Assembly: GCF_011046245.1 (NCBI RefSeq)
Contig: NZ_CP049244.1
Coordinates: forward strand, 1,178,001 to 1,242,000
Length of the DNA stretch: 64,000 nucleotides
Reading direction: 5' to 3'
Source of the DNA: Allorhizobium pseudoryzae
GTDB lineage: Bacteria > Pseudomonadota > Alphaproteobacteria > Rhizobiales > Rhizobiaceae
Shown in pieces: positions 14,227-26,958 of the stretch. Position 1 is the stretch's first letter; every line of letters starts with the position of its first letter. The position numbers and the translations under genes were made by a program. The notes below the pieces were generated by a model, which was not told where the DNA came from, did not search any database, and saw only the letters and a list, made by a program, of their open reading frames with translations.

Positions 14227-15576
14227 TCACCCCTTGCGGGCAGCCGCATAACGGTTGACCGGCATGGAAATGCCGAGGTTTTCGCGCAGGGTCGAGCCTT
14301 CGTATTCGTCGCGAAACAGGCCGCGGCGGCGCAGTTCCGGCACCACGAGCTCGACGAAATCGGTGAGGCTGGCGGGTAGCGTCGGGCACATCAGGATGAA
14401 GCCGTCGGCGGCGCCCGCCTCGAACCATTCCTCCATGAAATCGGCGATCTCCGTTGGCGTGCCGGTGATGCCGTTGCCGGTGCTCTTTTCCGCGTAGTGG
14501 CGGATGAGGTGGCCGAGCGTGTGGCCCTTGCGGATGTAGTCCGTCAGTTCCTCGAACAGCGCCTTCGAGCCCTTCGGTTCGGCGGGAAGCCGCTCCATCG
14601 GGAAGGGCTCATCGAGCGCCGCACCGGAGAGATCCGTCTCGAGGAACTCGCCCAGCATCCAGCGGCCGACATCCGGATGCAGATTGTCGATGAGGAAATC
14701 GACCTTGGCCTGCGCCTCCGCCTTGGTTTGTCCGACATTGATGACGACGCCCGGCATCATCTTCAAATCGCTCGTCTGGCGGCCATATTTCGCCATGCGG
14801 CCTTTGACGTTTTCGGCAAAGGCCTTGTTGCGTTCCAGGTTCGAGGCAAGGCTGAAGACGATTTCGGCGGTGCGGGCGGCAAGCTCCATGCCGGGTTCAG
14901 AGCCGCCGGCCTGGGCAATGATCGGTCGTCCCTGCGGCGAGGCGGCGATATTGAGAGGGCCGCGCACCTGAAAATGCTTGCCCTTGTGGTTGAGCGTGTG
15001 CAGCTTGTCCTTATCGTAATAGAGGCCGGACGCCTTATCGAGCACCAGCGCATCCGGTTCGAAACTGTCCCAGAGGCCGAAGACGACATCGACGAATTCC
15101 GCACCGCGCTCATAACGCCAGCTGTGCGGCGGCAGCCCGTCGAAATTGTAGTTGTAGCCCGTTTCGTCGTGATCCGAGGTCACGACGTTCCAGCAGGAGC
15201 GCCCGCCGCTCAAGTGATCGATCGAGGCAAAGATACGGGCGATGTTGAAGGGTTCGTAGAAGCTGGTGGAGGCCGTCGCGACAAAACCGAGCTTCTCGGT
15301 CAGCACCGACAGCGCCGAAATCAGCGAAAGGGGCTCGAAGCGGTTCATCTTGGTCGGCGAGCGAGACAGGGCTTCGGGATCACCGATCGCCGCGGCCGGT
15401 GAATCGGCCAGGAACATGAAGTCGAACTTTGCCGCTTCCGAAATCTTTGCCACCTTCAGAAGGTGGTCGATCTTGTTGGCGCCGTTGACATCGACATCCG
15501 GATGCCGCCAGGCGGCCGGGTTGAAACCGAAGGTGTAGACGAATGTGCCAAGCTTGAGCTTGTCGGGGCGGGCCAT
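14227..15576 (-). CDS. LLM-class flavin-dependent monooxygenase (NtaA/SnaA/DszA family)
   Basis: A reduced-FMN-dependent oxygenase of the bacterial luciferase fold. The 449-residue protein has the family N-terminus (LGTFVYTFGFNPAAWRHP), the FDFMFLADSPA segment, NVVTSDHDETGYNYNFDGLP and the AQAGGSEPGMELAARTAEIVF stretch near the FMN phosphate. Family members cleave C-N or C-S bonds in nitrilotriacetate, sulfones or S-modified cysteine. It is the last gene of the importer operon, 12 bases after the GntR gene, and AAAGGA precedes its start. The link to an amino acid importer recalls the Bacillus yxe/ytm operons, so an S- or N-substituted amino acid is a plausible substrate. Confidence 0.85.
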   Translation of the reverse strand: MARPDKLKLGTFVYTFGFNPAAWRHPDVDVNGANKIDHLLKVAKISEAAKFDFMFLADSPAAAIGDPEALSRSPTKMNRFEPLSLISALSVLTEKLGFVATASTSFYEPFNIARIFASIDHLSGGRSCWNVVTSDHDETGYNYNFDGLPPHSWRYERGAEFVDVVFGLWDSFEPDALVLDKASGLYYDKDKLHTLNHKGKHFQVRGPLNIAASPQGRPIIAQAGGSEPGMELAARTAEIVFSLASNLERNKAFAENVKGRMAKYGRQTSDLKMMPGVVINVGQTKAEAQAKVDFLIDNLHPDVGRWMLGEFLETDLSGAALDEPFPMERLPAEPKGSKALFEELTDYIRKGHTLGHLIRHYAEKSTGNGITGTPTEIADFMEEWFEAGAADGFILMCPTLPASLTDFVELVVPELRRRGLFRDEYEGSTLRENLGISMPVNRYAAARKG

Positions 15577-15588
15577 GACGGCATCCTT

Positions 15589-16374
15589 TCAGGGCGATGT
15601 TTTGGAATTCAATGGGTGGAGCGGTTTGAAGCGGGCCGTCAGCGCGTGGCTTCCTCCGGGATAGCTCAGGTGGACGCGGGTCACAGTCTCCTCGAGGCGC
15701 CAGGTCTGGCGCTCGACGACAAGGATCGGTGCTCCGGACGAAAGCCCCAGAAGGTCTGCCCGCCGGTCGGAGGCCGCATCCGCCGAAATATGATGTTCCG
15801 CCGCGTTCCAGGGCACATGATTGACCAGCCAGCGACCGGGTGCGAGATCCTCAAATGCCTCCGCCTCGGCGTGCGGCGCTGCAGACAGATTGATGATCCG
15901 CTCTTCGAGGCAGAACGGGGCGTCATTGCCGAGATGCAGGACGGTGAGCGCGAGAAGCCTGCAGCGGGCGGGAAGGCTCGCAAGCTGACGCTCGGTCTTG
16001 GTCGGCGGACGCACAATTCGTTCGATGACCGTGAAGCGATAAACGAGATTCTGCGCACGCACCTCGTCGCCGATATCGTAGATTTCGAGGATCGCGCTGT
16101 GGGATTCCTGCGGCATCACGACACTGCCGGTCTTGCGTCGGCGCAGCAGCAGTCCGGCGCGCGCAAGCTCCGTCAGCACCTTGTTCACCGTCATCCGCGA
16201 GCAGCCGTAGGTCTCCGTCAGCGCTTGTTCGGACGGAATGCGGTGGCCGGCCGGCCAGCGTCCCGAGAGGATGTTGCTTTCGATATCCCGCAGAATGCGC
16301 CGATGCAGCGAGACCGGCGCCGCAGAACCGCGATCGGTTGGGTACGACATCGGTGTCTGCGGGGGGCTATCCAT
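15589..16374 (-). CDS. GntR-family regulator, HutC-like (UTRA domain)
   Basis: A 261-residue repressor-type regulator. The N-terminal winged helix is at about 22-92 (IPSEQALTETYGCSRMTVNKVL). The C-terminal UTRA effector domain has PFCLEERIINLSAAPHAEA and WLVNHVPWNAAEHHISA, strongly resembling HutC, the urocanate-responsive repressor. No histidine-degradation gene is present, so it probably senses a substrate or intermediate of the adjacent importer/monooxygenase pathway. It lies 3 bases after the ATPase gene and would be produced by the operon it is likely to control. An internal Met at position 9 is a second possible start. Confidence 0.82.
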   Translation of the reverse strand: MDSPPQTPMSYPTDRGSAAPVSLHRRILRDIESNILSGRWPAGHRIPSEQALTETYGCSRMTVNKVLTELARAGLLLRRRKTGSVVMPQESHSAILEIYDIGDEVRAQNLVYRFTVIERIVRPPTKTERQLASLPARCRLLALTVLHLGNDAPFCLEERIINLSAAPHAEAEAFEDLAPGRWLVNHVPWNAAEHHISADAASDRRADLLGLSSGAPILVVERQTWRLEETVTRVHLSYPGGSHALTARFKPLHPLNSKTSP

Positions 16375-16377
16375 CGA

Positions 16378-17169
16378 TCAGGCCAGCATGGAGGCGCCGC
16401 GATCCAGATAGGTATCGAGGAACTGTTCGAGGCGCGGATGGCGGGGCTTGGCAAAAATCTCCGACGGCGGGCCGGTGAAGAGCAGACGCCCTTGGTCGAG
16501 AAAGCTGATCTGGTTGCCGACGGTGGCCGCAAAGCCGATCTCGTGGCTGACCACCACCATGGTCATGCCTTCGGCGGCGAGATCCCGCATCACGTTCAGC
16601 ACTTCGCCGGTCAATTCCGGATCGAGCGCCGAGGTGGGCTCATCAAACAGCATGATCTTCGGCGAAAGCGCAAGGGCGCGGGCGATCGCCACACGCTGCT
16701 GCTGTCCGCCGGAGAGCTGCGACGGGTAGTGACCGGCGCGGTTGGACAGCCCCACCTTGGTCAGTTGCACCATGGCCCGGTCTTCGGCCTCGGATTTCGG
16801 CATTTTGTGGACCGTCTTCAGCGCCTCCGAAACATTGCCGAGTGCCGTCATGTGCGGCCAGAGATTGAACTGCTGGAAGACCATGCCGATCTGCGCGCGG
16901 ACCGCGCGGATCTGGGCGGCCGGCAGGCGTTCGCGGTCCCCCTTGGCATTCTCGAAGAAGCCGAGGGCTTCGCCGTTGACGGTGATCATGCCCTCGCTTG
17001 CCTCCTCCAGAAACGCGAGGCAACGCAAAAGCGTGCTTTTGCCGGAACCGGAGGGGCCGATGAGGCAGGAGACCTTGCCTTCCGGTACGTCGAGATCGAT
17101 CTCCTGCAGCACGGTGGTGGTGCCGAAACGCTTGACGAGGCTGCGGACGGAAATGGCGGGAAGCGTCAT
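16378..17169 (-). CDS. polar amino acid ABC importer, ATP-binding subunit
   Basis: The energising ATPase (263 residues) of the importer. It has Walker A GPSGSGKS at 38-45, FQQFNLWPHMTALGN after the Q-loop, signature LSGGQQQR, Walker B LFDEPTSALD, and VVVSHE for the H-loop. FQQFNLWPHM and the overall length are typical of HisP/GlnQ-type subunits. The start ATG overlaps the stop of the upstream permease gene by four bases. An open frame continues far upstream in the same phase, but that part lies within the permease gene and is not coding. Confidence 0.93.
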   Translation of the reverse strand: MTLPAISVRSLVKRFGTTTVLQEIDLDVPEGKVSCLIGPSGSGKSTLLRCLAFLEEASEGMITVNGEALGFFENAKGDRERLPAAQIRAVRAQIGMVFQQFNLWPHMTALGNVSEALKTVHKMPKSEAEDRAMVQLTKVGLSNRAGHYPSQLSGGQQQRVAIARALALSPKIMLFDEPTSALDPELTGEVLNVMRDLAAEGMTMVVVSHEIGFAATVGNQISFLDQGRLLFTGPPSEIFAKPRHPRLEQFLDTYLDRGASMLA

Positions 17170-17834
17170 GATGCGGCAAACCTGAAGGTGGAGAGACGGG
17201 CTTCGGCCAGGCGGCCGAGGCGGGCGGCGGCCTCGACAATCACCCAGTAGATGATGGCGAGCAGGAAGATGGCTTCCAGGAAGGCGTATTCCTGCGATCC
17301 GATGGCGCTGACGGTCGTGGTGAGTTCCGGCACCGTGATGATCGACAGGACGGCGGATTCCTTCAAGAGGATCACCGCGAGGTTGACGGACGGCGGCAGC
17401 ACGATGAGCGCCATTTCGGGCAGAAGGATGCGCCGGATGATCTGGAAACGCGTGAGGCCGAGGCATTCGCCGGCCTCCACATGGCCATGCGGCACGGAGG
17501 CATACCCGGCGCGGAAGATTTCCGAATAATAGGCGGCGGCATAGATGCTGAGGCCAAACAGGCCGCAGGGGATCGGATCGAGCGAGATTCCAATGAACGG
17601 GCCGCCGTAATAGACGAGAAAGATCTGGATCAGGAACGGCGTGCCGCGCAGAACCTCCACCGCAAGCCCGAGCGGCAGGTCGATCAAGCGGCCGCCATAG
17701 CGGCGCAATGTGGCGACGACGAAGCCGATGAGGATGCCGAGCACCATGCCGGCAATCCAGAGCGCCAGCGTGACGCCGGTCCCGCTGATGATTTCCGGAA
17801 GATGGTTCAAGATGACGTTGGGATCGAAGATCAT
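17166..17834 (-). CDS. polar amino acid ABC importer, permease
   Basis: A 222-residue inner membrane permease of the HisM/GlnP type. It has an N-terminal span (GTGVTLALWIAGMVLGILIG), the RGTPFLIQIFLVYYGGPF segment, the EAA loop with EIFRAGYASVPHGHVEAGECLG, and two more spans. It pairs with the second permease encoded immediately upstream. It overlaps both neighbouring genes by four bases. Confidence 0.92.
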   Translation of the reverse strand: MIFDPNVILNHLPEIISGTGVTLALWIAGMVLGILIGFVVATLRRYGGRLIDLPLGLAVEVLRGTPFLIQIFLVYYGGPFIGISLDPIPCGLFGLSIYAAAYYSEIFRAGYASVPHGHVEAGECLGLTRFQIIRRILLPEMALIVLPPSVNLAVILLKESAVLSIITVPELTTTVSAIGSQEYAFLEAIFLLAIIYWVIVEAAARLGRLAEARLSTFRFAAS

Positions 17835-18475
17835 TTGGCGGCTCCCGGCAGGGACCGTTCGCCATAGCGCCCGGCGAGCGCCACGGCCCAGCAGATCACG
17901 AGATAGATCAGAGCCGCGGAGGAAAAGATCTCGATCGGCATGTAGGTCGATGAGGCGAGATCCTGCGCCATGCGGGTGATCTCGATAATGCCGACGACCG
18001 AGACGAGCGAGGACGATTTCAGGATCATAATCGCCTCGTTGACCAGCGCCGGAAAGGTGAGACGCAAAGCGATCGGCACCTTGATCCGGAGAAACACCTG
18101 CCGGGCGGAAAAGCCGGCCATGTCGGCGGCCTCGATCAAGCCCTTCGGCACGCTTTCGAACCCGCCGCGCAGGTTTTCCGCCTGATAGGCGGCGGTGCAG
18201 AGCGACATGCCGATGATCGCCGCGACGATGCTCGGCACGTTGAGGCCGATGAAGGGCAGGAGATTGTAGATGAGCAGCAACTGCACCAGAAGCGGCACGC
18301 CGCGGAAGAAGCTGATGAAGAACTCCGCCGGTCGCCGGTAGAGAGCTTTGCCGGACAGGAGCGCGGCCGACAGGCCGATGGCGATCAGGAAACCGAGCGC
18401 AATCGAAATGACGCTGATGCCGATCGTCCAGACGGAAGCCTGGACCAGCAGGGAGAAAAGTTTAAACGACATCAA
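17831..18475 (-). CDS. polar amino acid ABC importer, permease
   Basis: A 214-residue inner membrane permease, first of the two. It shows the N-terminal span ASVWTIGISVISIALGFLIA, the FRGVPLLVQLLLIYNLLPF segment, the EAA loop (AENLRGGFESVPKGLIEAADMAG) and a final span near the C-terminus (IYLVICWAVALAG). It lies 93 bases downstream of the binding-protein gene, with a stem-loop in between, and overlaps the next permease gene by four bases. Confidence 0.92.
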   Translation of the reverse strand: MMSFKLFSLLVQASVWTIGISVISIALGFLIAIGLSAALLSGKALYRRPAEFFISFFRGVPLLVQLLLIYNLLPFIGLNVPSIVAAIIGMSLCTAAYQAENLRGGFESVPKGLIEAADMAGFSARQVFLRIKVPIALRLTFPALVNEAIMILKSSSLVSVVGIIEITRMAQDLASSTYMPIEIFSSAALIYLVICWAVALAGRYGERSLPGAAK

Positions 18476-18532
18476 GATGATCCGTCGCGGCGAATGTGAC
18501 CGGAGCGTGAGGCGCGCGGCCGGGCGGCGGGA

Positions 18533-18559
18533 TCAGGCCGACCCTGTGGGCCGGCCTGA
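18533..18559 (-). promoter_or_regulatory. intercistronic stem-loop between binding protein and permease genes
   Basis: TCAGGCCG (18533-18540) pairs with CGGCCTGA (18552-18559) over an 11-base loop. It sits in the 93-base gap after the binding-protein stop. In importer operons such hairpins commonly protect the binding-protein mRNA and lower downstream expression; that role here is inferred from location. Confidence 0.5.
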
Positions 18560-18568
18560 CGGGACGGT

Positions 18569-19396
18569 TCAGATGGCCGGTTCCTTGACCGAATCCGGGG
18601 TGTCGAACTTCGTGCCGAACCACTTTTCCTGCAGCTTGGCCATGCGGCCATCGCCCTTCATCTTGATGAGCGCGGCATCGATCGCATCCATCAGCGAGGC
18701 GTAGTCCGCATCCTTGCGGCCGACATAACCGAAATAGGTCTTCTTGCCGAAAGGCGGCAGGACCAGTTCGAACATGCCCGCGCGCTGCTTGGCGACGAAG
18801 GCGATGTTCGGCAGCGAATTGGCAACGGCGACGATGCGGCCGGCGGCCATGTCGGCATAGGCGTCGTTGAAGGCCGGGTATTCGCGGATGTCGACCTTGG
18901 AGGGCAGGGTGGCGGAATATTCCGTCAACTGAGCGAGCTGGGCGGTGGCCTTTCCGACGCCAACCGCCTTGCCGGCGATGTCTTCCGGCTTGCTGATCGG
19001 AGCGCCGGCCTTCTTGAGGATTGCAACGGTCGCTTCGGCGATCGGCGACGAGAAGCGGTAACGTTCCATGCGCGCCTTGGTGATGGTCGCAGGGCCGGCG
19101 ACCACGTCGAACTTGCCGGCTTCCAGACCCGGAAGCACGCCTTCCCATGGCAGCGTGACCCATTCGATCTTCACGCCCAGTTCCTTGCCGATCTCGTCGA
19201 ACAGATCGACATTGAGGCCGGCATGCGTGCCGGCGTCAATGAAATCGAAGGGTGCGAAGGCGGTTTCCGTTCCGACCTTCAGAACGCCTGCCGTCTTGGC
19301 CTTGGCGAGAATGTCGTCCGCATGGGCGGAAAGCGTGGCGCCAAACAGCATGGCTGCGCCAAGTGCTGCCTTGAGGAAATGTCTTTTGTGCATCAT
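18569..19396 (-). CDS. polar amino acid ABC importer, periplasmic binding protein
   Basis: A 275-residue family 3 solute-binding protein. A signal peptide (charged start, then LKAALGAAMLFGATLSAHA) is cleaved near residue 26. The mature part starts with GVLKVGTETAFAPFDF and has GLNVDLFDEIGKELGVK, DVVAGPATITKARMERYRFS and a C-terminal GDGRMAKLQEKWFG, all typical of the family. The ligand cannot be read from sequence. The gene heads the six-gene operon; GGGAG precedes the first of two adjacent ATG codons. Confidence 0.92.
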   Translation of the reverse strand: MMHKRHFLKAALGAAMLFGATLSAHADDILAKAKTAGVLKVGTETAFAPFDFIDAGTHAGLNVDLFDEIGKELGVKIEWVTLPWEGVLPGLEAGKFDVVAGPATITKARMERYRFSSPIAEATVAILKKAGAPISKPEDIAGKAVGVGKATAQLAQLTEYSATLPSKVDIREYPAFNDAYADMAAGRIVAVANSLPNIAFVAKQRAGMFELVLPPFGKKTYFGYVGRKDADYASLMDAIDAALIKMKGDGRMAKLQEKWFGTKFDTPDSVKEPAI

Positions 19397-19830: not shown

Positions 19831-22551
19831 ATGGAACCCAACCTACTTCGATATATCTGGAATCATACCCGCAAGCAGCAGATCTGGATTCTCGCGATCG
19901 TGCTCTTGTCGATGATTCCCTATTTCGCGGCGTTCGATCTGCCGAAACAGATCATCAATGGCCCCATCCAGGGTGAAGGTTTCGACACGCCGGATTCGAC
20001 CGCGCTGTTCATGGCGTTCGATTTCCAGGTGCCGGTTGTCGGCTGGACGATCTCGTATGAGGGGATCGAGCTGGACCGGTTGTCGATGCTGATGGCCCTC
20101 AGCGGCGTCTTCCTGCTGCTGGTCGTCATCAACGGCCTCTTCAAGTTCTACATCAACACCTACAAGGGGCGCCTCGGCGAGCGGCTTTTGCGGCGCATCC
20201 GCTACGAGCTCGTCGACCGGGTGCTACGCTTTCCGCCGAGTGCGCTGAAGCAGGTGCACGGCGCGGAAGTCTCGACGATGGTGAAGGACGAGGTGGAGCC
20301 CTTCGGTGGCTTTACCGGCGATGCCTTCGTACAACCGGCAATGCTGGGCGGACAGGCGGCCGCGGCGCTGTTCTTCATCTTCCTGCAGAATTTTTCGCTC
20401 GGCATGATTGCCGCCGTCATGGTGGCGATCCAGGTCGGTATCATTCCGAAGATGCGCCGGCGCCTGATCGATCTCGGCCGCCAGCGCCAGATCACCGCGC
20501 GCCATCTGGCAGGCAAGGTCGGTGAGATCGTCGATGGCATCGAGACGATCCATGCCTTCGATACGTCGAACTACGAACGCGCCGACATCGCCCATCGTCT
20601 CGGGCAGATCTACAAGATCCGTTTCGACCTCTACCAGTGGAAGTTTCTCGTCAAGTTCGTCAACAACTTCCTGTCGCAGCTGACGCCCTTCCTGTTCTAT
20701 TCGATCGGCGGATATTTCGCCTTGCGCGGTTCGCTCGACGTCGGGCAGCTCGTCGCCGTCATCAACGCCTACAAGGATCTGCCGGGACCGCTGAAGGAGC
20801 TGATCGACTGGGACCAGGCGCGCCAGGACGTGCAGGTCAAGTACGAGCAGCTTCTCGAGCAGTTCGATCCGGGACAATTGATCGATGCGAGCCTGCATCA
20901 GCCGAGTGCCATGATGCCCGTACAGGCTGATGGTCCGCTCTGCGCCCACAATGTCACGATCGTTGACGGCAGCGGCGTGAAGATCGTCGAGAACACGACG
21001 CTCAGGATCGAACCCGGCGAAACGATTGCGATCATCGACAATGCCGGCAGCGGCGCCGAAGGCATCGCCAAGGCTTTCGGACGGCTTGTCTGGCCGGTGT
21101 CCGGGCGCATCACGCTCGCGGACGAGGATATCCTGGAACTGCCGGAATCGGTGTCCGGCCGACGGATTTCCTACGTGTCGCCGGACAGCTATTTTTTCCA
21201 CGGCACATTGAAGGACAATCTCCTCTACGGCTTGAAGCACGCGCCCACCTCGACGGTCAGCTACGAGGGGCGTGATGCGCTGACGCGCCGCTGGGAAATC
21301 AGCGAAGCGAAGCTTGCCGGCAACCCGGATCTCGATCTCAATGCCGACTGGATCGACCGTCGCTCGACCTCCATCCTGCGCGGGTTCGATGATGACCTGA
21401 AGCAGTCGGTGATGCGGGCGCTCGATGCGGTTCAGCTGACTGAAGATGTCATGGAACTGGCGCTGCATTCCTTCCTCGATCCGGAAGAGAACCCTCTTCT
21501 GGCCGAGCGGGTGGTTGCGATGCGCCACGCGTTGCGCCAGACGCTGGAGGAAGAGGGGCTTGCGCATATCGTGGCGCATTTCGACCCGGTCGATTACAAC
21601 AGCGAGGCAACGGTCGGCGAAAACCTCTTCTTCGCCGCGACGCGTGGCGCCGGAAACGGTGACGCCGACATCACCGAAAGCCCCGAGGTGTTCGATGTCC
21701 TGGACACCACGAAACTCTCCGACATGCTTTACGGCATGGGGCTGACGATTGCGGAAAACCTGGTCGAAATCTTTGTCGGGCTGCCGCCGGATCATCCGTT
21801 CTACCAGCAGCTGGAACGGATTACGGCGCAGGATGTCACCTTCTACCAGCAATTCCTGCAGCGCCTGTCGTCGCGCACGGAGAAGGGCGTCTCCGAGGAG
21901 GAGCGGCGGGCGATCATCCGGCTCAGCCTGCATTACATCGAGCCGCGCTACCGTCTGGGTGTGCTGACGCCGGAGGTGATGGAGACGATCGTTGCGGCTC
22001 GCGACCGCTTCTACGACAACCTGCCGTCCGCGATCCGCAACCGGGTGGAGCGTTACGATCCGCACCGCTACATGGCGGCTGCGACACTGCGCGAGAACGT
22101 GTTGTTCGGCAAATTGTCTTATCGTGTCGCCGACGCGCCGGCGAAGATCCGTCCCGTTGCCGCCCGCATCATGGAACAGCAGGGCCTGTTCGAAAGCTTT
22201 ATCGCTCTCGGCCTCAGCTTCGACGTCGGCTCGGGCGGGCGTCGTCTGACAATCGCCCAGCGTCACAAGCTTGCATTGGCCCGCGCTCTGGTGCGTCGCT
22301 CGGATTTCTACATCCTCAATCGAGCCCTACCGGGCCTGGATCGGCGTGTCCAGGAAGAGATCGTCGCGACAACCATGCAGTTTCTGCACGAGCAGAACTC
22401 GCGAGCGTCCGTCGTGTGGGTTCTTTCGAACACATCGCTGTCACGATTGTTTCATCGGGTGATCGTATTCGACCGGGGTCAGATCGTTGAAGACGGCACG
22501 TTCGAAACGCTCGACAAGGAAAGTGGTATTTTCAAATCGCTGGTGGCGTGA
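19831..22551 (+). CDS. ABC-exporter-like protein with degenerate nucleotide-binding domain
   Basis: A 906-residue protein with an N-terminal exporter-type membrane domain (about six spans up to residue 310) and a nucleotide-binding domain that has lost its catalytic residues. At the Walker A site NAGSGAEG (404-411), Ala409 and Glu410 replace Lys and Ser/Thr. The signature is LTIAQ (806-810), the Walker B Asp is Asn830 with Arg831 in place of Glu, and no H-loop His is seen. Walker A and signature are ~400 residues apart instead of ~100. In between, a Q-loop-like unit ending in (G/A)T-x-x-(E/D)N-x-(L/F) occurs at 458, 593 and 751. It is followed after 25 bases by a cyclic-nucleotide-binding protein. 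ATP-driven transport looks unlikely; function unknown. Confidence 0.8.
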   Translation: MEPNLLRYIWNHTRKQQIWILAIVLLSMIPYFAAFDLPKQIINGPIQGEGFDTPDSTALFMAFDFQVPVVGWTISYEGIELDRLSMLMALSGVFLLLVVINGLFKFYINTYKGRLGERLLRRIRYELVDRVLRFPPSALKQVHGAEVSTMVKDEVEPFGGFTGDAFVQPAMLGGQAAAALFFIFLQNFSLGMIAAVMVAIQVGIIPKMRRRLIDLGRQRQITARHLAGKVGEIVDGIETIHAFDTSNYERADIAHRLGQIYKIRFDLYQWKFLVKFVNNFLSQLTPFLFYSIGGYFALRGSLDVGQLVAVINAYKDLPGPLKELIDWDQARQDVQVKYEQLLEQFDPGQLIDASLHQPSAMMPVQADGPLCAHNVTIVDGSGVKIVENTTLRIEPGETIAIIDNAGSGAEGIAKAFGRLVWPVSGRITLADEDILELPESVSGRRISYVSPDSYFFHGTLKDNLLYGLKHAPTSTVSYEGRDALTRRWEISEAKLAGNPDLDLNADWIDRRSTSILRGFDDDLKQSVMRALDAVQLTEDVMELALHSFLDPEENPLLAERVVAMRHALRQTLEEEGLAHIVAHFDPVDYNSEATVGENLFFAATRGAGNGDADITESPEVFDVLDTTKLSDMLYGMGLTIAENLVEIFVGLPPDHPFYQQLERITAQDVTFYQQFLQRLSSRTEKGVSEEERRAIIRLSLHYIEPRYRLGVLTPEVMETIVAARDRFYDNLPSAIRNRVERYDPHRYMAAATLRENVLFGKLSYRVADAPAKIRPVAARIMEQQGLFESFIALGLSFDVGSGGRRLTIAQRHKLALARALVRRSDFYILNRALPGLDRRVQEEIVATTMQFLHEQNSRASVVWVLSNTSLSRLFHRVIVFDRGQIVEDGTFETLDKESGIFKSLVA

Positions 22552-22576
22552 TTGAATAACGTCCAGCGCAATAGAT

Positions 22577-23053
22577 ATGGTGGACGCCATGCTGCTGAAC
22601 GACGAGGTCACGCTTCTTCGCCAGGTTCCCTACTTCAGTAGGATCGACCCGTGCAAGCTGAAGCTCCTCGCGTTTACATCCGCGAGGGTCTGTTATCGTC
22701 CGGGCGAGGCGATCTTCCAGTGTGGTGACGCCTCCGACAGCGCCTATGTGATCATCGATGGCACCGTGGAGCTGGTCGTATCCGGGCCATCCGGCGAAAA
22801 TGTGGTCGGTTCTGCCGCGCGCAATTCCATCATTGGGGAGATGTGCCTGTGGGGTGATGCGCCGCGGCGCGGCCATGCGCGCGCCGTCACCGATGTGGAG
22901 GTTCTGCGCATCGGCAAGGACTGTTTCCTGAAGGTGATGGCGGACAATCCGCGCATGGGCATCGAAGTCAGCCGCGCGCTGGCGGAAACGCTCCGCGACC
23001 GGGCAAACGGCATCGGGAAACGGCCTGTCGCGGTGCTTGAACCGGCGGACTGA
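22577..23053 (+). CDS. stand-alone cyclic-nucleotide-binding domain protein
   Basis: A 158-residue protein made almost wholly of one CRP-like cyclic-nucleotide-binding beta-roll: LLRQVPYFSRIDPCKLKLLA, YRPGEAIFQCGDASDSAYVI, the IIGEMCLWGD turn and HARAVTDVEVLRIGKDCF. No helix-turn-helix DNA-binding domain follows, so it is not a CRP/FNR transcription factor. In the phosphate-binding loop the usual PRSA is PRRG, so ligand binding is uncertain. It starts 25 bases after the degenerate ABC gene and is probably co-transcribed; a regulatory-subunit role for that protein is my inference. Confidence 0.85.
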   Translation: MVDAMLLNDEVTLLRQVPYFSRIDPCKLKLLAFTSARVCYRPGEAIFQCGDASDSAYVIIDGTVELVVSGPSGENVVGSAARNSIIGEMCLWGDAPRRGHARAVTDVEVLRIGKDCFLKVMADNPRMGIEVSRALAETLRDRANGIGKRPVAVLEPAD

Positions 23054-23097: not shown

Positions 23098-23580
23098 CTA
23101 CCGCCGGCGATAGTGGAAATAGCGACCTTCCTGTACCGTCGGCAGGCGCGGAAGCTCTTCCAGGTCCGGGTGGCTCAGCGGCAGGCCACTGACGGCATAG
23201 CCGCCGGAGGCCAGCATGCCGGCCACCATCTGTGGCAGCCAAGTGAGCGTCACCGCATCCTTCTCGTCGTATCCCGTGCCGATATCGGCATGAACGAGCG
23301 CGGCCTCGGCGCCAATGAGGCCCTGACCGGTCTCGCGAATTTCGCCCTCGATGAAATCCTGCGGGTCCGGAGTCCCTCCGGCATGCGAGGCGAGCTTGCG
23401 GTCGAATGCGATGATCCGCCGATTCGGAAAATTTTCGCGCAGGTGGCTGTACGTGCGCCCATTGCCGAGGCCGATCTCGACGATGATGCCGCTGTCTGGC
23501 AGCACGCACGTGTCACGCACATGGTTCAGCATGTCACGCTGCGCGCTCATGCGGTTGATGAAACTGTCGAGTCTGCTCAC
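23098..23580 (-). CDS. class I SAM-dependent methyltransferase
   Basis: A 160-residue protein with SAM-binding motif I VEIGLGNGRTY at 34-44 and a motif II-like IIAFDRKL. It resembles the small rhizobial methyltransferases of the Methyltransf_17 type, but I cannot check this. The GTG start at 23580 is chosen because AGGAG stands 6 bases upstream; the open frame continues further but overlaps the end of the upstream gene's coding region. It lies 28 bases after the nucleotide-sugar dehydrogenase gene on the same strand. The target is unknown. Confidence 0.75.
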   Translation of the reverse strand: MSRLDSFINRMSAQRDMLNHVRDTCVLPDSGIIVEIGLGNGRTYSHLRENFPNRRIIAFDRKLASHAGGTPDPQDFIEGEIRETGQGLIGAEAALVHADIGTGYDEKDAVTLTWLPQMVAGMLASGGYAVSGLPLSHPDLEELPRLPTVQEGRYFHYRRR

Positions 23581-23608
23581 ATCCGTCTCCTGGCCGCGGC
23601 CGTTCTTC

Positions 23609-24952
23609 TCAAGCCTTGACGACCTTGTCCGACGCGATGGCGCGGCGGGCAAATACATTTCGGGTATCGACGATCAGCGACGAGTCTTGCGCGAGTGCCG
23701 CGTAATCGATCCGGTCGTGGTCGGTCGCGATGACCACCGCATCGAAGCCCGCAAGGGTGTCTGCCGAAAGCGCGACGGAGCGTCGCCCCTTCAGGTGGCC
23801 GTATTCACGGGTGCGCGGCACCTCCGCAATGAAGGGGTCGTGATAGGAAACATCCGCGCCGCGCTCCAAAAGCAGTTCCATCAGCCGAAGCGATGGGCTT
23901 TCGCGGATGTCCGGAACGTTCTTCTTGTAGGCGAGGCCGATGATCAGCACCTTCGAGCGGCTGAGCGCCCGGCCGAGACGGCGATCCAGGGCTTCCGCCA
24001 GCTTTTCGACGACGTGCCGCGGCATCGCAGTGTTGATCTCGCCGGCAAGCTCGATGAAGCGCGTCGGCTGCTCAAACTCGCGCGATTTCCAGGTGAGGTA
24101 GAAGGGATCGATGGGGATGCAGTGCCCGCCGAGTCCCGGCCCCGGATAAAAGGGCATGTAGCCGAAGGGTTTGGTCTTCGCCGCGTCGATCACCTCCCAG
24201 ACGTCGATGCCCATCGCGTCGTAGACGAGCTTCAATTCGTTGACGAGTGCGATGTTGACCGCGCGAAAAATGTTTTCCGTCAGCTTCACGGCTTCGGCCG
24301 TTCGGGTACAGGAGACCGGCACGATGGTCTTGACCACGGCGCCGTAGAAAGCCTGCATCAGCGCAGAGGCATAGTCGCCATCGCCGGCGACAACCTTTGG
24401 AATGGTCGAGGTCTCGAAATCACGGTTGCCGGGATCTTCGCGTTCGGGCGAATAACCGAGATAGAAATCTTGGCCGGCTTTCAGCCCGGTCTTTTCCAGG
24501 ATCGGCTTCATCACCTCTTCGGTGGTGCCGGGATAGGTGGTCGATTCCAGCACAATGAGCTGGCCGGGCCTCAGGCGCTTGGCGATGTCCCGGCAGGTGT
24601 TTTCCACATAGGTGAGGTCCGGATCGCGGTAGCGCGTCAGCGGGGTGGGCACGCAGATGGCAATCACATCGCATTCGGCAAGCCGGTCGAAATCGCAGGT
24701 CGCGGCAAACCGTCCCTCGCCGTGCTCCTTGGCAAGAACGGCATCCGATACGGCATCAATATAGCTCTTGTGGCGATCGATCTCGGTGATCTTGTCCGGG
24801 TCGATATCGAAACCGAGCACGGAAAAGCCGGCGCGCGACATGCTCATGGCAAGCGGCAGGCCGACATAACCGAGCCCGATGACACCGGCCTTTGCGGTTT
24901 TGCTCTGAATGGCGGCCAGAAGATCCGTCCGGCTGTTCTGTTCCTGGTCCAC
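23609..24952 (-). CDS. nucleotide-sugar dehydrogenase, UDP-N-acetylglucosamine type
   Basis: A two-step NAD-dependent oxidase turning a UDP-N-acetylhexosamine into the uronic acid for surface polysaccharide. The 447-residue protein has the Rossmann motif GLGYVG at 26-31, the SPEREDPG segment and catalytic Cys278 within GPGLGGHCIPIDPFYLTW. That last motif is typical of WbpA-like UDP-GlcNAc 6-dehydrogenases rather than UDP-glucose dehydrogenases. GTG 24952 is preceded by AAGGTG; the frame is open far upstream, but that part is antisense to the GT4 gene. It complements the UDP-glucose dehydrogenase at 5629. Confidence 0.88.
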   Translation of the reverse strand: MDQEQNSRTDLLAAIQSKTAKAGVIGLGYVGLPLAMSMSRAGFSVLGFDIDPDKITEIDRHKSYIDAVSDAVLAKEHGEGRFAATCDFDRLAECDVIAICVPTPLTRYRDPDLTYVENTCRDIAKRLRPGQLIVLESTTYPGTTEEVMKPILEKTGLKAGQDFYLGYSPEREDPGNRDFETSTIPKVVAGDGDYASALMQAFYGAVVKTIVPVSCTRTAEAVKLTENIFRAVNIALVNELKLVYDAMGIDVWEVIDAAKTKPFGYMPFYPGPGLGGHCIPIDPFYLTWKSREFEQPTRFIELAGEINTAMPRHVVEKLAEALDRRLGRALSRSKVLIIGLAYKKNVPDIRESPSLRLMELLLERGADVSYHDPFIAEVPRTREYGHLKGRRSVALSADTLAGFDAVVIATDHDRIDYAALAQDSSLIVDTRNVFARRAIASDKVVKA

Positions 24953-25141
24953 GCGCGCATCACCTTTTATCAACCTGTTCCGGCTGCTCAGTTGAGTGGC
25001 CGAGGCCCGCCTGTCAAGATCACGGTGTGTCACGGCTGCTCGACCGGGCGTGGCAGATGCGGTTGGTTGACGAGGATACGGCGCGGGAAAAATGGGGGCG
25101 GCCCTTGCATTCTGCCCCTTGCCTCCCTCTATCTCTGCGGC

Positions 25142-26224
25142 ATGAAGATCGCCTTTTACGCTCCCCTGAAATCGCCCGAGCATCCGGTTCCCTCCGGTGA
25201 CCGGCTGATGGCGCTCCAACTGCTGCAGGCTCTGACGCTCGCCGGGCATAGGGTGGAGGTGGTCTCGCAGTTGCGCGCCTACTCTGCGTCGCCCGACGTG
25301 CCGCCGGACCACGCGGCGGATGCGGCGGCGGAACGCCATCGCATCGCGGCGGACTGGGAGACGGCTGGTCCGCCGGATCTCTGGTTCTGCTACCATCCCT
25401 ATTACAAGGCGCCGGATCGGCTTGGTCCGTCCCTCTGCCGGGACTTCAACATACCCTATGTGACGGCAGAATGTTCCTATTCGCACAGACGCAACATCGG
25501 CGGCTGGGCGGTATCCCAAGCGCTGGTTCGCGACGGCGTGCGGCAGGCAGCGGTCAACATCTGCCTGACGGAGCGGGATCGCCGCGGGTTGGAAGATGCC
25601 GTACCGGAGGCGCGCCTCGCCGGACTTCCCCCCTTCATCGACGCGACCCCGTTCCTTGCCACAGATCCGCGGCCGCAAGCCGGTCATCTCGTGACGGTCG
25701 CGATGATGCGGCCGGGCGACAAGCTGAGCAGCTACAGCGCCTTGGCGGCAGCACTCTCGCGGCTTCTCGACGAAGACTGGAGCCTGAGCCTGATTGGCGA
25801 CGGGCCGGAACGGGAGGCGATCGGGGCCTTGTTTTCGCACATCCCGGCCGGTCGGCTGCGCTGGCATGGTCAGCTGAAGCCGGCGGAGATTGCTGCGGTT
25901 TTCTCCTCTGCATCCCTCTATGTCTGGCCGGGGCACGGCGAGGCCTACGGGCTTGCCTATCTCGAAGCCCAGGCGGCGGGGCTTCCCGTGATTGCCGAGG
26001 CGGTTGCCGGCGTGCCGGAAGTGGTCGTGCATCAGCGCACCGGCCTTCTGACGGCGCCGGGAGATCCACAAGCGTATGCGGAAGCCATCCGCACGTTGCT
26101 GCGTGACACGGCGCGACGCAAGACCTATGCCGAGGCGGCGCGGCAGTTTGTGGCGGGCGAGCACTCGCTGGCATCCGCCACCAAGAGGCTCGATACCATT
26201 CTCCGCTCGGTCGTGAAGGAGTGA
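25142..26224 (+). CDS. family 4 glycosyltransferase
   Basis: A retaining GT-B glycosyltransferase of 360 residues. It begins MKIAFYAPLKSPEHPVPSGD. The C-terminal half carries the GT4 pattern: SLIGDGPERE, then LYVWPGHGEAYGLAYLEAQ with the conserved glutamates, and GLPVIAEAVAGVPEVV. No signal peptide or span is seen. No strong ribosome binding site precedes the ATG, but it is the only start at the beginning of the family domain. The next gene overlaps its stop region, so the two are coupled. Confidence 0.88.
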   Translation: MKIAFYAPLKSPEHPVPSGDRLMALQLLQALTLAGHRVEVVSQLRAYSASPDVPPDHAADAAAERHRIAADWETAGPPDLWFCYHPYYKAPDRLGPSLCRDFNIPYVTAECSYSHRRNIGGWAVSQALVRDGVRQAAVNICLTERDRRGLEDAVPEARLAGLPPFIDATPFLATDPRPQAGHLVTVAMMRPGDKLSSYSALAAALSRLLDEDWSLSLIGDGPEREAIGALFSHIPAGRLRWHGQLKPAEIAAVFSSASLYVWPGHGEAYGLAYLEAQAAGLPVIAEAVAGVPEVVVHQRTGLLTAPGDPQAYAEAIRTLLRDTARRKTYAEAARQFVAGEHSLASATKRLDTILRSVVKE

Positions 26225-26226
26225 CG

Positions 26227-26958
26227 ATGTCTGAAACCCAGGTAATGGCCCTGCTCGACCACCTCGCCGATCAGGGCAAGGTCGTGAATTTCTGGCTGCG
26301 TGACGATGATGCTGTCTTGCCGACCCCGGCGCTCGACCGTCTGCTGACCCTGACGCGCACGGCCGGCGTGCCGCTGACTTTGGCGGTGATCCCCGAACAG
26401 ACCGGGCAGCCGCTCGTGGACTGCCTGAGGGGAGAGCCGCATGTGGCTGTCGCCGTGCACGGCTGGTCGCACCGGAACCATGCGCCGCCACAGGCCAAGA
26501 ACCAGGAGCTCGGCCTCCACCGGCCGATCGATGAGGTTCTGGGCGAGTTGAAGCACGGCCTTGAAAAGCTTGACGCGCTCCATGGCCCGCAGTTCCTGTC
26601 CATGCTGGTTCCGCCCTGGAACCGGATCGCGCCGGAGATAGTCGAACGACTGCCGGCTTTGGGCTTCGGCAGCCTCTCTGTCTTCGGTCGCGAGAAGCCG
26701 GCGCCATTACCCGTGCTCAACACCCACATCGATATCATGGACTGGCGCGGAACCCGCGGAGGCCATCCGTCGGAGGTGCTTTTCGGCGACATCCTGGCCT
26801 ATCTGGAGAGCGATCAGCCGGTGCGCGCCATCGGCGTGCTGACACACCATCTGGTGCATGACGAACAGGCCTGGGCCTTTCTCGAACGGCTGTTTGAACG
26901 AACCGCCGGACACCCGGCGTGCCGCTGGGCTGCCGCCGCGGATCTGATCGGCAACTGA
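26227..26958 (+). CDS. polysaccharide deacetylase-family protein
   Basis: A 243-residue cytosolic protein resembling carbohydrate esterase family 4 (NodB fold). It has the acidic LRDDDAV with Asp26-28, then VPLTLAVIPEQ, and the metal-binding HGWSH with His78 and His82. The later motifs are less clear (PPWNRI at about 137-142). It may deacetylate a sugar in a polysaccharide precursor, which fits the GT neighbours. ATG 26227 is preceded by AAGGAG; an overlapping GTG at 26221 is the alternative. It converges with the GT32-like gene. Confidence 0.82.
   Translation: MSETQVMALLDHLADQGKVVNFWLRDDDAVLPTPALDRLLTLTRTAGVPLTLAVIPEQTGQPLVDCLRGEPHVAVAVHGWSHRNHAPPQAKNQELGLHRPIDEVLGELKHGLEKLDALHGPQFLSMLVPPWNRIAPEIVERLPALGFGSLSVFGREKPAPLPVLNTHIDIMDWRGTRGGHPSEVLFGDILAYLESDQPVRAIGVLTHHLVHDEQAWAFLERLFERTAGHPACRWAAAADLIGN

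Follow-up and report, generated by a model that had tools for sequence, protein, structure and literature searches.

In this work we have examined a pair of genes from Allorhizobium pseudoryzae, which lies in a stretch of 64,000 nucleotides (contig NZ_CP049244.1, positions 1,178,001 to 1,242,000) called the window below. The first gene encodes P0001, a membrane protein resembling the ATP-binding cassette (ABC) exporters in which every ATPase motif has been replaced, and the second encodes P0002, a small cyclic nucleotide-binding (CNB) protein. To judge from sequence comparison, P0001 belongs to a large and old alphaproteobacterial family, and we found no prior description of this ABC/CNB family in the open literature that we searched. 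The reading that we prefer, although we hold it tentatively, is that an ABC exporter fold without ATPase has come to be controlled by a CNB subunit and in many species lies beside glycan genes. ABC proteins are defined by their use of ATP. A family which is constrained without using ATP, and which has repeats in its nucleotide-binding domain (NBD) and a CNB-type sensor, would show how a pump can turn into a signal-controlled membrane device; it would also hint at a cAMP branch in rhizobia whose target is the membrane instead of transcription. The names that such genes bear in some records, 'ABC transporter ATP-binding protein' and 'Crp/Fnr family transcriptional regulator', are probably wrong.

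The reading frame of P0001 begins with ATG and continues through 906 codons without interruption, and the family alignments show little or no variation at the first methionine. Its main features are:

19831..22551, + strand: P0001, ABC-exporter-like membrane protein without ATPase motifs, 906 aa (Pfam, motif inspection, predicted structure with mean pLDDT 82.1)
19831..20865, + strand: transmembrane domain, about residues 1-345 (Pfam, family alignments, predicted structure)
20917..22548, + strand: NBD fold, about residues 363-906, broken by about 270 inserted residues (predicted structure)
21034..21066, + strand: degenerate Walker A, residues 402-412, IDNAGSGAEGI (motif inspection, family alignment)
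22246..22260, + strand: degenerate signature LTIAQ, residues 806-810, which does not match LSGGQ (motif inspection)
22318..22323, + strand: degenerate Walker B Asp and catalytic Glu, here N830 and R831 (motif inspection, family alignment)
22429..22431, + strand: degenerate H-loop, with N867 replacing His (motif inspection, family alignment)

An intact exporter-like membrane domain had been proposed from the letters alone, and this is borne out by the Pfam match to ABC_membrane (PF00664, 7.5e-20) and by structural matches covering residues 2-906 of the predicted model, where the exporter membrane domain and the NBD fold are both present. The match to ABC_tran is weak (5.4e-08). No other part of the protein is as well conserved in the family alignments as the membrane domain; after its first helix, residues 58-81 are modelled as short strands with low to middling confidence. 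The estimate of an NBD stretched to about 500 residues agrees with the extent of the NBD-like part in the predicted structure. In Walker A, A409 takes the place of the Lys and is followed by E410, so the pattern GxxGxGK[ST] is absent, and the Gln position of the Q-loop aligns with P451. The same genome has a second full-length ABC copy which is 56% identical to P0001.

How far does the loss of motifs extend among the relatives of P0001? At a profile-search cut-off of E <= 1e-60 the family turned up in 132 of 385 genomes from a class sample, in 99 of 297 from an order sample and in 32 of 398 from a phylum sample; these three samples overlap in part. The 32 carriers of the phylum sample belong, with one exception, to the window's class; in that exception (G548) the membrane domain alone matches, on a contig of 3,186 bases. 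Among the plasmid records 261 of 72,556 matched at 1e-60. The best 80 loci come from carriers such as Rhizobium, Agrobacterium, Sinorhizobium, Mesorhizobium, Phyllobacterium, Shinella, Brucella/Ochrobactrum and Pseudooceanicola, and a few metagenome relatives bear gammaproteobacterial labels if their binning is taken as given. For the motif comparison we aligned 152 full-length members, of which one is P0001 and 151 come from fetched regions, and we excluded matches that were partial, broken, membrane-only or NBD-only. The fetched regions were our own choice of loci, 140 places from the class, phylum and order listings spread over genera together with some others, and their flanks are mostly 6 kb and often ended by contig ends. 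With columns placed by automatic alignment, LSGG[QE] was found in none of the 152 and the complete set of ATPase motifs in none, and in the 240 proteins that two database searches listed, an SGG[QE] string never stood at the signature position. Other motifs have gone less evenly. The Walker A Lys is present in 52/152 and GK[ST] in 5/152; Walker B has its Asp in 32/152, its Glu in 49/152 and both in 5/152, and a His is found in the H-loop stretch of 33/152. The claim that every ATPase motif is lost is thus right for P0001 and too broad for its family, where 96 of the 152 have at least one scored feature left and 56 have none. The best row, L119, retains five of six, and the Walker motifs of L118 and L119 are nearly complete. 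By these alignments the decay of the motifs is old and graded, and total in P0001.

The ratios of non-synonymous to synonymous substitution (dN/dS) lay between 0.00 and 0.19 in ten pairs of relatives for the membrane domain, the NBD core, the insert and the NBD end, with dS above 1 in some comparisons; the highest value, 0.19, comes from the window's own pair, in the NBD core. Every segment of the ten tested pairs is under purifying selection. Could P0001 nevertheless be a decaying exporter gene? The loss of all its motifs might suggest so, as might two second copies of the same genus that look impaired, one of them split between two frames (L047, genome G016) and the other with no CNB gene next door (L039, genome G005). 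Set against the 906 open codons, the low dN/dS throughout and a signature loss common to all 152 members, this explanation can be practically dismissed, in keeping with the earlier view that the gene is not a pseudogene.

More attention is due to the idea that these proteins still bind ATP or export slowly at its expense with unorthodox motifs, or that each is one half of a heterodimer with a working partner. The NBD fold is complete in the predicted structure, its segments are under purifying selection, about a third of the aligned members have the Walker A Lys and L118 and L119 come close to a full Walker set. Exporters built as heterodimers in which one site is degenerate are a familiar type (PMC7756269). 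However, with LSGGQ absent from all aligned members a homodimer could not form a classical site in trans, and P0001 itself has no motif left. Another exporter-like open reading frame (ORF) occurs in only two of the 152 fetched regions (L062 and L197), to which this search was confined, and 120 of the 132 carrier genomes in the class sample have a single family match. We consider a residual exporter unlikely.

Three Q-loop-like units that align with each other had been proposed to stretch the NBD:

21166..21240, + strand: unit 1, Q-loop-like, residues 446-470 (profile comparison)
21493..21648, + strand: unit 2, duplicated Q-loop/helical segment, residues 555-606 (profile comparison)
21973..22125, + strand: unit 3, duplicated Q-loop/helical segment, residues 715-765, running into the signature region (profile comparison)

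We compared sub-alignments of the 152 members profile against profile. Units 2 and 3 matched with 99.4% probability (E 9e-22 over 49 columns), and longer segments around them matched over 84 columns with E 5e-20; unit 1 matched unit 2 with 92% and unit 3 with 96% probability. Five control pairs from the same protein gave 0.2, 0.4, 0.7, 4.4 and 29.5%. The three units are genuine internal repeats, and duplication of a Q-loop/helical segment is the best account of the insert. Their TL/TV motifs lie at residues 459, 594 and 752; the positions first given for them (458, 593 and 751) were each off by one.

The second protein of the pair matches the description of a CRP-like sensor that lacks a DNA-binding part, since the Pfam matches of P0002 include no DNA-binding domain. 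Its start lies 25 bases past the stop codon of P0001:

22577..23053, + strand: P0002, stand-alone CNB domain protein, 158 aa (PF00027, 4e-19)
22835..22888, + strand: phosphate-binding cassette of P0002, residues 87-104, GEMCLWGDAPRRGHARAV (compared with G85/E86/R95/S96 of Clr)

The conservation of the pair, which the original prediction had wanted surveyed, is high. A CNB gene follows directly downstream on the same strand at 126 of the 152 loci, and at 19 more the CNB and ABC frames are fused, making 145 in total; at the named loci it lies downstream in 78 of 80, and L320, an exception, ends at a contig end. On a tree of 75 membrane domains the fused and separate states require four changes, at least three of them by well-supported branches, and such recurrent fusing or splitting is an argument that ABC and CNB are physical partners. 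A search with a fused query, in which both the query and the length window favour fused matches, listed 120 proteins, of which 109 have a CNB domain; in 22 a GGDEF domain is present as well. The GG[DE]EF string is absent from all 22 of these ABC-CNB-GGDEF fusions (P0183-P0240 listing), whose GGDEF domains look like binding modules. The coupling of ABC and CNB across the family is well supported. Neither of the two outcomes named beforehand as fatal to the original prediction came about among the homologues and loci examined: none has the intact motifs at the same positions, and the two genes do not lie apart at most loci. Four members without an adjacent CNB gene (L125, L147, L186 and L189) retain the Walker A Lys, too few for a trend.

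The pair is also carried by Sinorhizobium meliloti on pSymB, and as this symbiont is genetically tractable the proposed role is open to experiment. In strain 1021 the pSymB copy (NC_003078.1, 841723-844411) aligns in two pieces and in strain 2011 in one; further S. meliloti records show either the one-piece or the two-piece alignment.

Does the CNB partner have the means to hold a cyclic nucleotide? In the Clr protein of S. meliloti, residues G85, E86, R95 and S96 hold the sugar-phosphate of the ligand (PMC10127613), and the Glu and Arg of the family CNBs stand at the corresponding places. In 147 family CNBs (locus L113, with a match below 60 bits, was left out) the Gly is invariant, the Glu is found in 137, the Arg in 143, both together in 133 and a Ser or Thr after the Arg in 128. 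P0002 retains G87, E88 and R97 and has R98 at the Ser/Thr position. Its structural matches include SthK, PKA, PKG and Crp-type chains, and its NCBIfam matches to Family 2B encapsulins and TIGR03896 are weak (39 of 400 and 30 of 161 bits). The suggested link to cyclic nucleotides is supported for the family, with the Glu-Arg pair in most CNBs and a cyclase gene in 35 of the 152 regions; it is weaker for the window copy, as discussed below.

A subfamily of relatives (L102-L110) consists of the exporter membrane domain alone, with no NBD. A search with one of its members listed 120 proteins of 341-509 aa, from which full-length relatives were kept out by a length window of 0.55-1.75 of the query; none of the 120 has an ABC_tran domain, and two hold a GK[ST]-like string somewhere. 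In a tree rooted at its midpoint, six of seven membrane-only rows group beside the full-length family and one inside it. The subfamily indicates that the fold is used in nature without any NBD. We considered a passive conduit, or a lipid or glycan flippase, with an exporter fold which does not use ATP, is controlled by cAMP and is gated through the CNB protein; the NBD segments would serve as a signalling lever, and the sister subfamily would have shed its NBD. In this specific form the idea seems rather unlikely to us. The lone membrane-domain proteins (for example at L102, L103, L104 and L108) are often named 'ATP-binding protein' despite having no NBD. The matches L111-L115, on the other hand, lie mainly in the swollen NBD and have a membrane domain that is poor or unmatched; L114 is near a metallo-β-lactamase (MBL) fold gene and L115 near a cyclase gene.

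The membrane-only relatives also raise the question of a role in metal handling, in which the membrane domain would deal with copper or another metal and the cyclic nucleotide part would regulate it. Multicopper oxidase or CopB genes lie beside them at three of four loci scanned (L102, L104 and L108), two of these three have in addition weak PCu(A)C or YHS matches below the Pfam cut-offs, and a weak YHS match follows the same-genus second copy L042. This evidence comes from four loci and ten scanned proteins, however, and the full-length family is found more often with glycan genes. A metal-related function is very unlikely in our opinion.

What do the genes around the pair suggest? Those next to it in the window form a glycan block:

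23098..23658, - strand: S-adenosylmethionine (SAM) methyltransferase (PF12692), convergent neighbour, also at 11/11 further window-type wide loci
23609..24928, - strand: nucleotide-sugar dehydrogenase by inspection, C-terminal 439 aa of the mechanical ORF 23609-26707, at 11/11 window-type wide loci
25142..26224, + strand: family-4 glycosyltransferase (GT4), about 360 aa, name and start by inspection, glycan block
26221..26958, + strand: polysaccharide-deacetylase-like protein, name by inspection (a relative is so annotated), glycan block

With a DXD-type transferase as its fifth member, this block recurs at all 11 further window-type loci. The dehydrogenase copy of a relative matches UDPG_MGDP_dh in Pfam. 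Beyond the window-type loci the GT4 gene is found at 24/48 order-level and 48/80 class-level loci, and the deacetylase-like gene at 23/48 and 24/80. The second copy of the window genome lies in a different, operon-like row: an MBL-fold hydrolase, a 2Fe-2S (Fer2)/class III cyclase, DUF3095, ABC and CNB, and one relative has the same row with a second cyclase. The cyclase of this row aligns with solved adenylate cyclases and retains the two metal Asp, the Lys/Asp pair and the Asn/Arg, positions which we take to have their usual catalytic roles. The MBL protein retains THxHxDH; the solved structures that match it are those of RNase Z proteins. Across the 152 regions we found a cyclase in 35, an MBL gene in 28 and either in 45, DUF3095 in 6, the methyltransferase in 53 and a GT28-like glycosyltransferase in 86, with at least one of these five in 119. 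Thirty-one of the 45 loci with a cyclase or MBL gene also have a glycosyltransferase. At the loci whose neighbours were listed one by one, the GT28-like gene is mostly divergent and adjoins the ABC gene, and the GT4 and deacetylase-like genes come after it. On an annotated Phyllobacterium plasmid, one row holds glycosyltransferases, ABC, 'Crp/Fnr', a metallophosphoesterase, MBL, a deacetylase, GT4, a cyclase and methyltransferases.

Neighbours of this kind could also mean that the protein conducts nothing. It might be a regulatory or scaffold subunit similar to the sulfonylurea receptors (SUR), which holds other enzymes such as glycosyltransferases in place while the CNB protein reports the level of cyclic nucleotide. 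The glycosyltransferase, deacetylase-like and methyltransferase genes at many loci would suit such a subunit, and so would the GGDEF fusions with their apparent binding modules. SUR2 chains are among the structural matches of the P0001 model, although ABC exporters in general match about equally well. The membrane domain, on the other hand, is the best conserved part and exists alone in the NBD-less subfamily, which fits a conduit at least as well, and no neighbour family that we searched for is present at all loci. We regard the scaffold as a doubtful explanation.

Several observations weigh against our preferred reading of a CNB-controlled exporter fold beside glycan genes. The Walker A Lys in 52 members and the Walker B Asp and Glu together in five mean that ATP binding may survive in places. 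Seven of the 152 loci have no adjacent CNB gene (L039, L125, L145, L147, L186, L189 and L191; at L145 one lies 624 bases away). The counts of neighbours come from profiles that were each built from one to six sequences, and a gene neighbourhood is an association that says nothing of what crosses the membrane. Glycosyltransferases are near none of the seven second-copy loci and near two of the 19 fused members; the glycan link is not general across the family, and the fused loci without glycan genes somewhat lowered our confidence in this reading. The window copy itself is not its best example. No cyclase or MBL gene was found in the 18 kb scanned around it, and in the 26 window-type CNBs (L001 and L009-L033, assigned by identity, plus tree or synteny where examined) an Asp replaces the Glu in seven and a Gln the Arg in four, so that 15 retain both and the cassette is being lost in this clade; the other CNBs in the same listing retain both in 14 of 14. 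The second-copy CNB of the window genome has a canonical cassette, and by this comparison the window copy is the more eroded of the two. With its cassette partly eroded, the window copy may answer another ligand or merely tether its partner.

How might the control of the exporter fold by the CNB protein work? We infer that a P0001-type protein resides in the inner membrane and probably forms a homodimer, and that its enlarged, ATP-blind NBD-like domain would offer a docking site and work as a lever. On this domain the small CNB protein would dock from the cytosolic side, and at the 19 fused loci it is part of the same chain. In part of the relatives the adjacent class III adenylate cyclase would supply the cyclic nucleotide, which the adjacent MBL-fold hydrolase might then remove. 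Binding or release of the ligand may then shift the CNB protein, so that the membrane domain is opened, closed or recruited, and in many species the membrane domain might serve the glycan assembly or export encoded next door. Either of the terms first applied to P0001, 'non-transporting' and 'ligand-gated', may be apt.

Compared with the type IV ABC exporters (MsbA, TM287/288, TmrAB, IrtAB and PCAT1), the family has no working set of ATPase motifs and has a CNB partner at nearly all loci, and P0001 has about 270 extra residues of duplicated Q-loop/helical segments. The sulfonylurea receptors and CFTR (ABCC8/9 and ABCC7) are exporter folds that serve other purposes than ATP-driven pumping; they still bind ATP, have no CNB subunit and are found in an unrelated gene context. 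TAP and TM287/288 share degenerate motifs in an exporter NBD, but one of their nucleotide sites stays consensus, whereas here LSGGQ is gone from all aligned members and an exporter-like neighbour is rare. Bacterial cyclic nucleotide-gated channels (SthK) and Crp-type receptors such as Clr have a CNB domain with the same Gly-Glu...Arg cassette, whereas in this family an ABC exporter fold forms the membrane part, usually with a separate CNB protein that has no DNA-binding domain. Family 2B encapsulins and the TIGR03896 bacteriocin-associated proteins are other bacterial CNB-bearing proteins; P0002 scores far under their curated cut-offs and they have other partner domains.

DUF3095 genes lie near the family in 6 of the 152 regions and at 13 of the 80 named loci (for instance L038:12872-14080), and no paper naming DUF3095 was found in the literature searched. 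On the opposite strand of the window, positions 14227-19396 hold genes of an amino-acid-type ABC importer, a GntR regulator with a UTRA domain and, by inspection, a flavin-monooxygenase-like ORF. GntR and binding protein genes occur at three of the 11 window-type wide loci.

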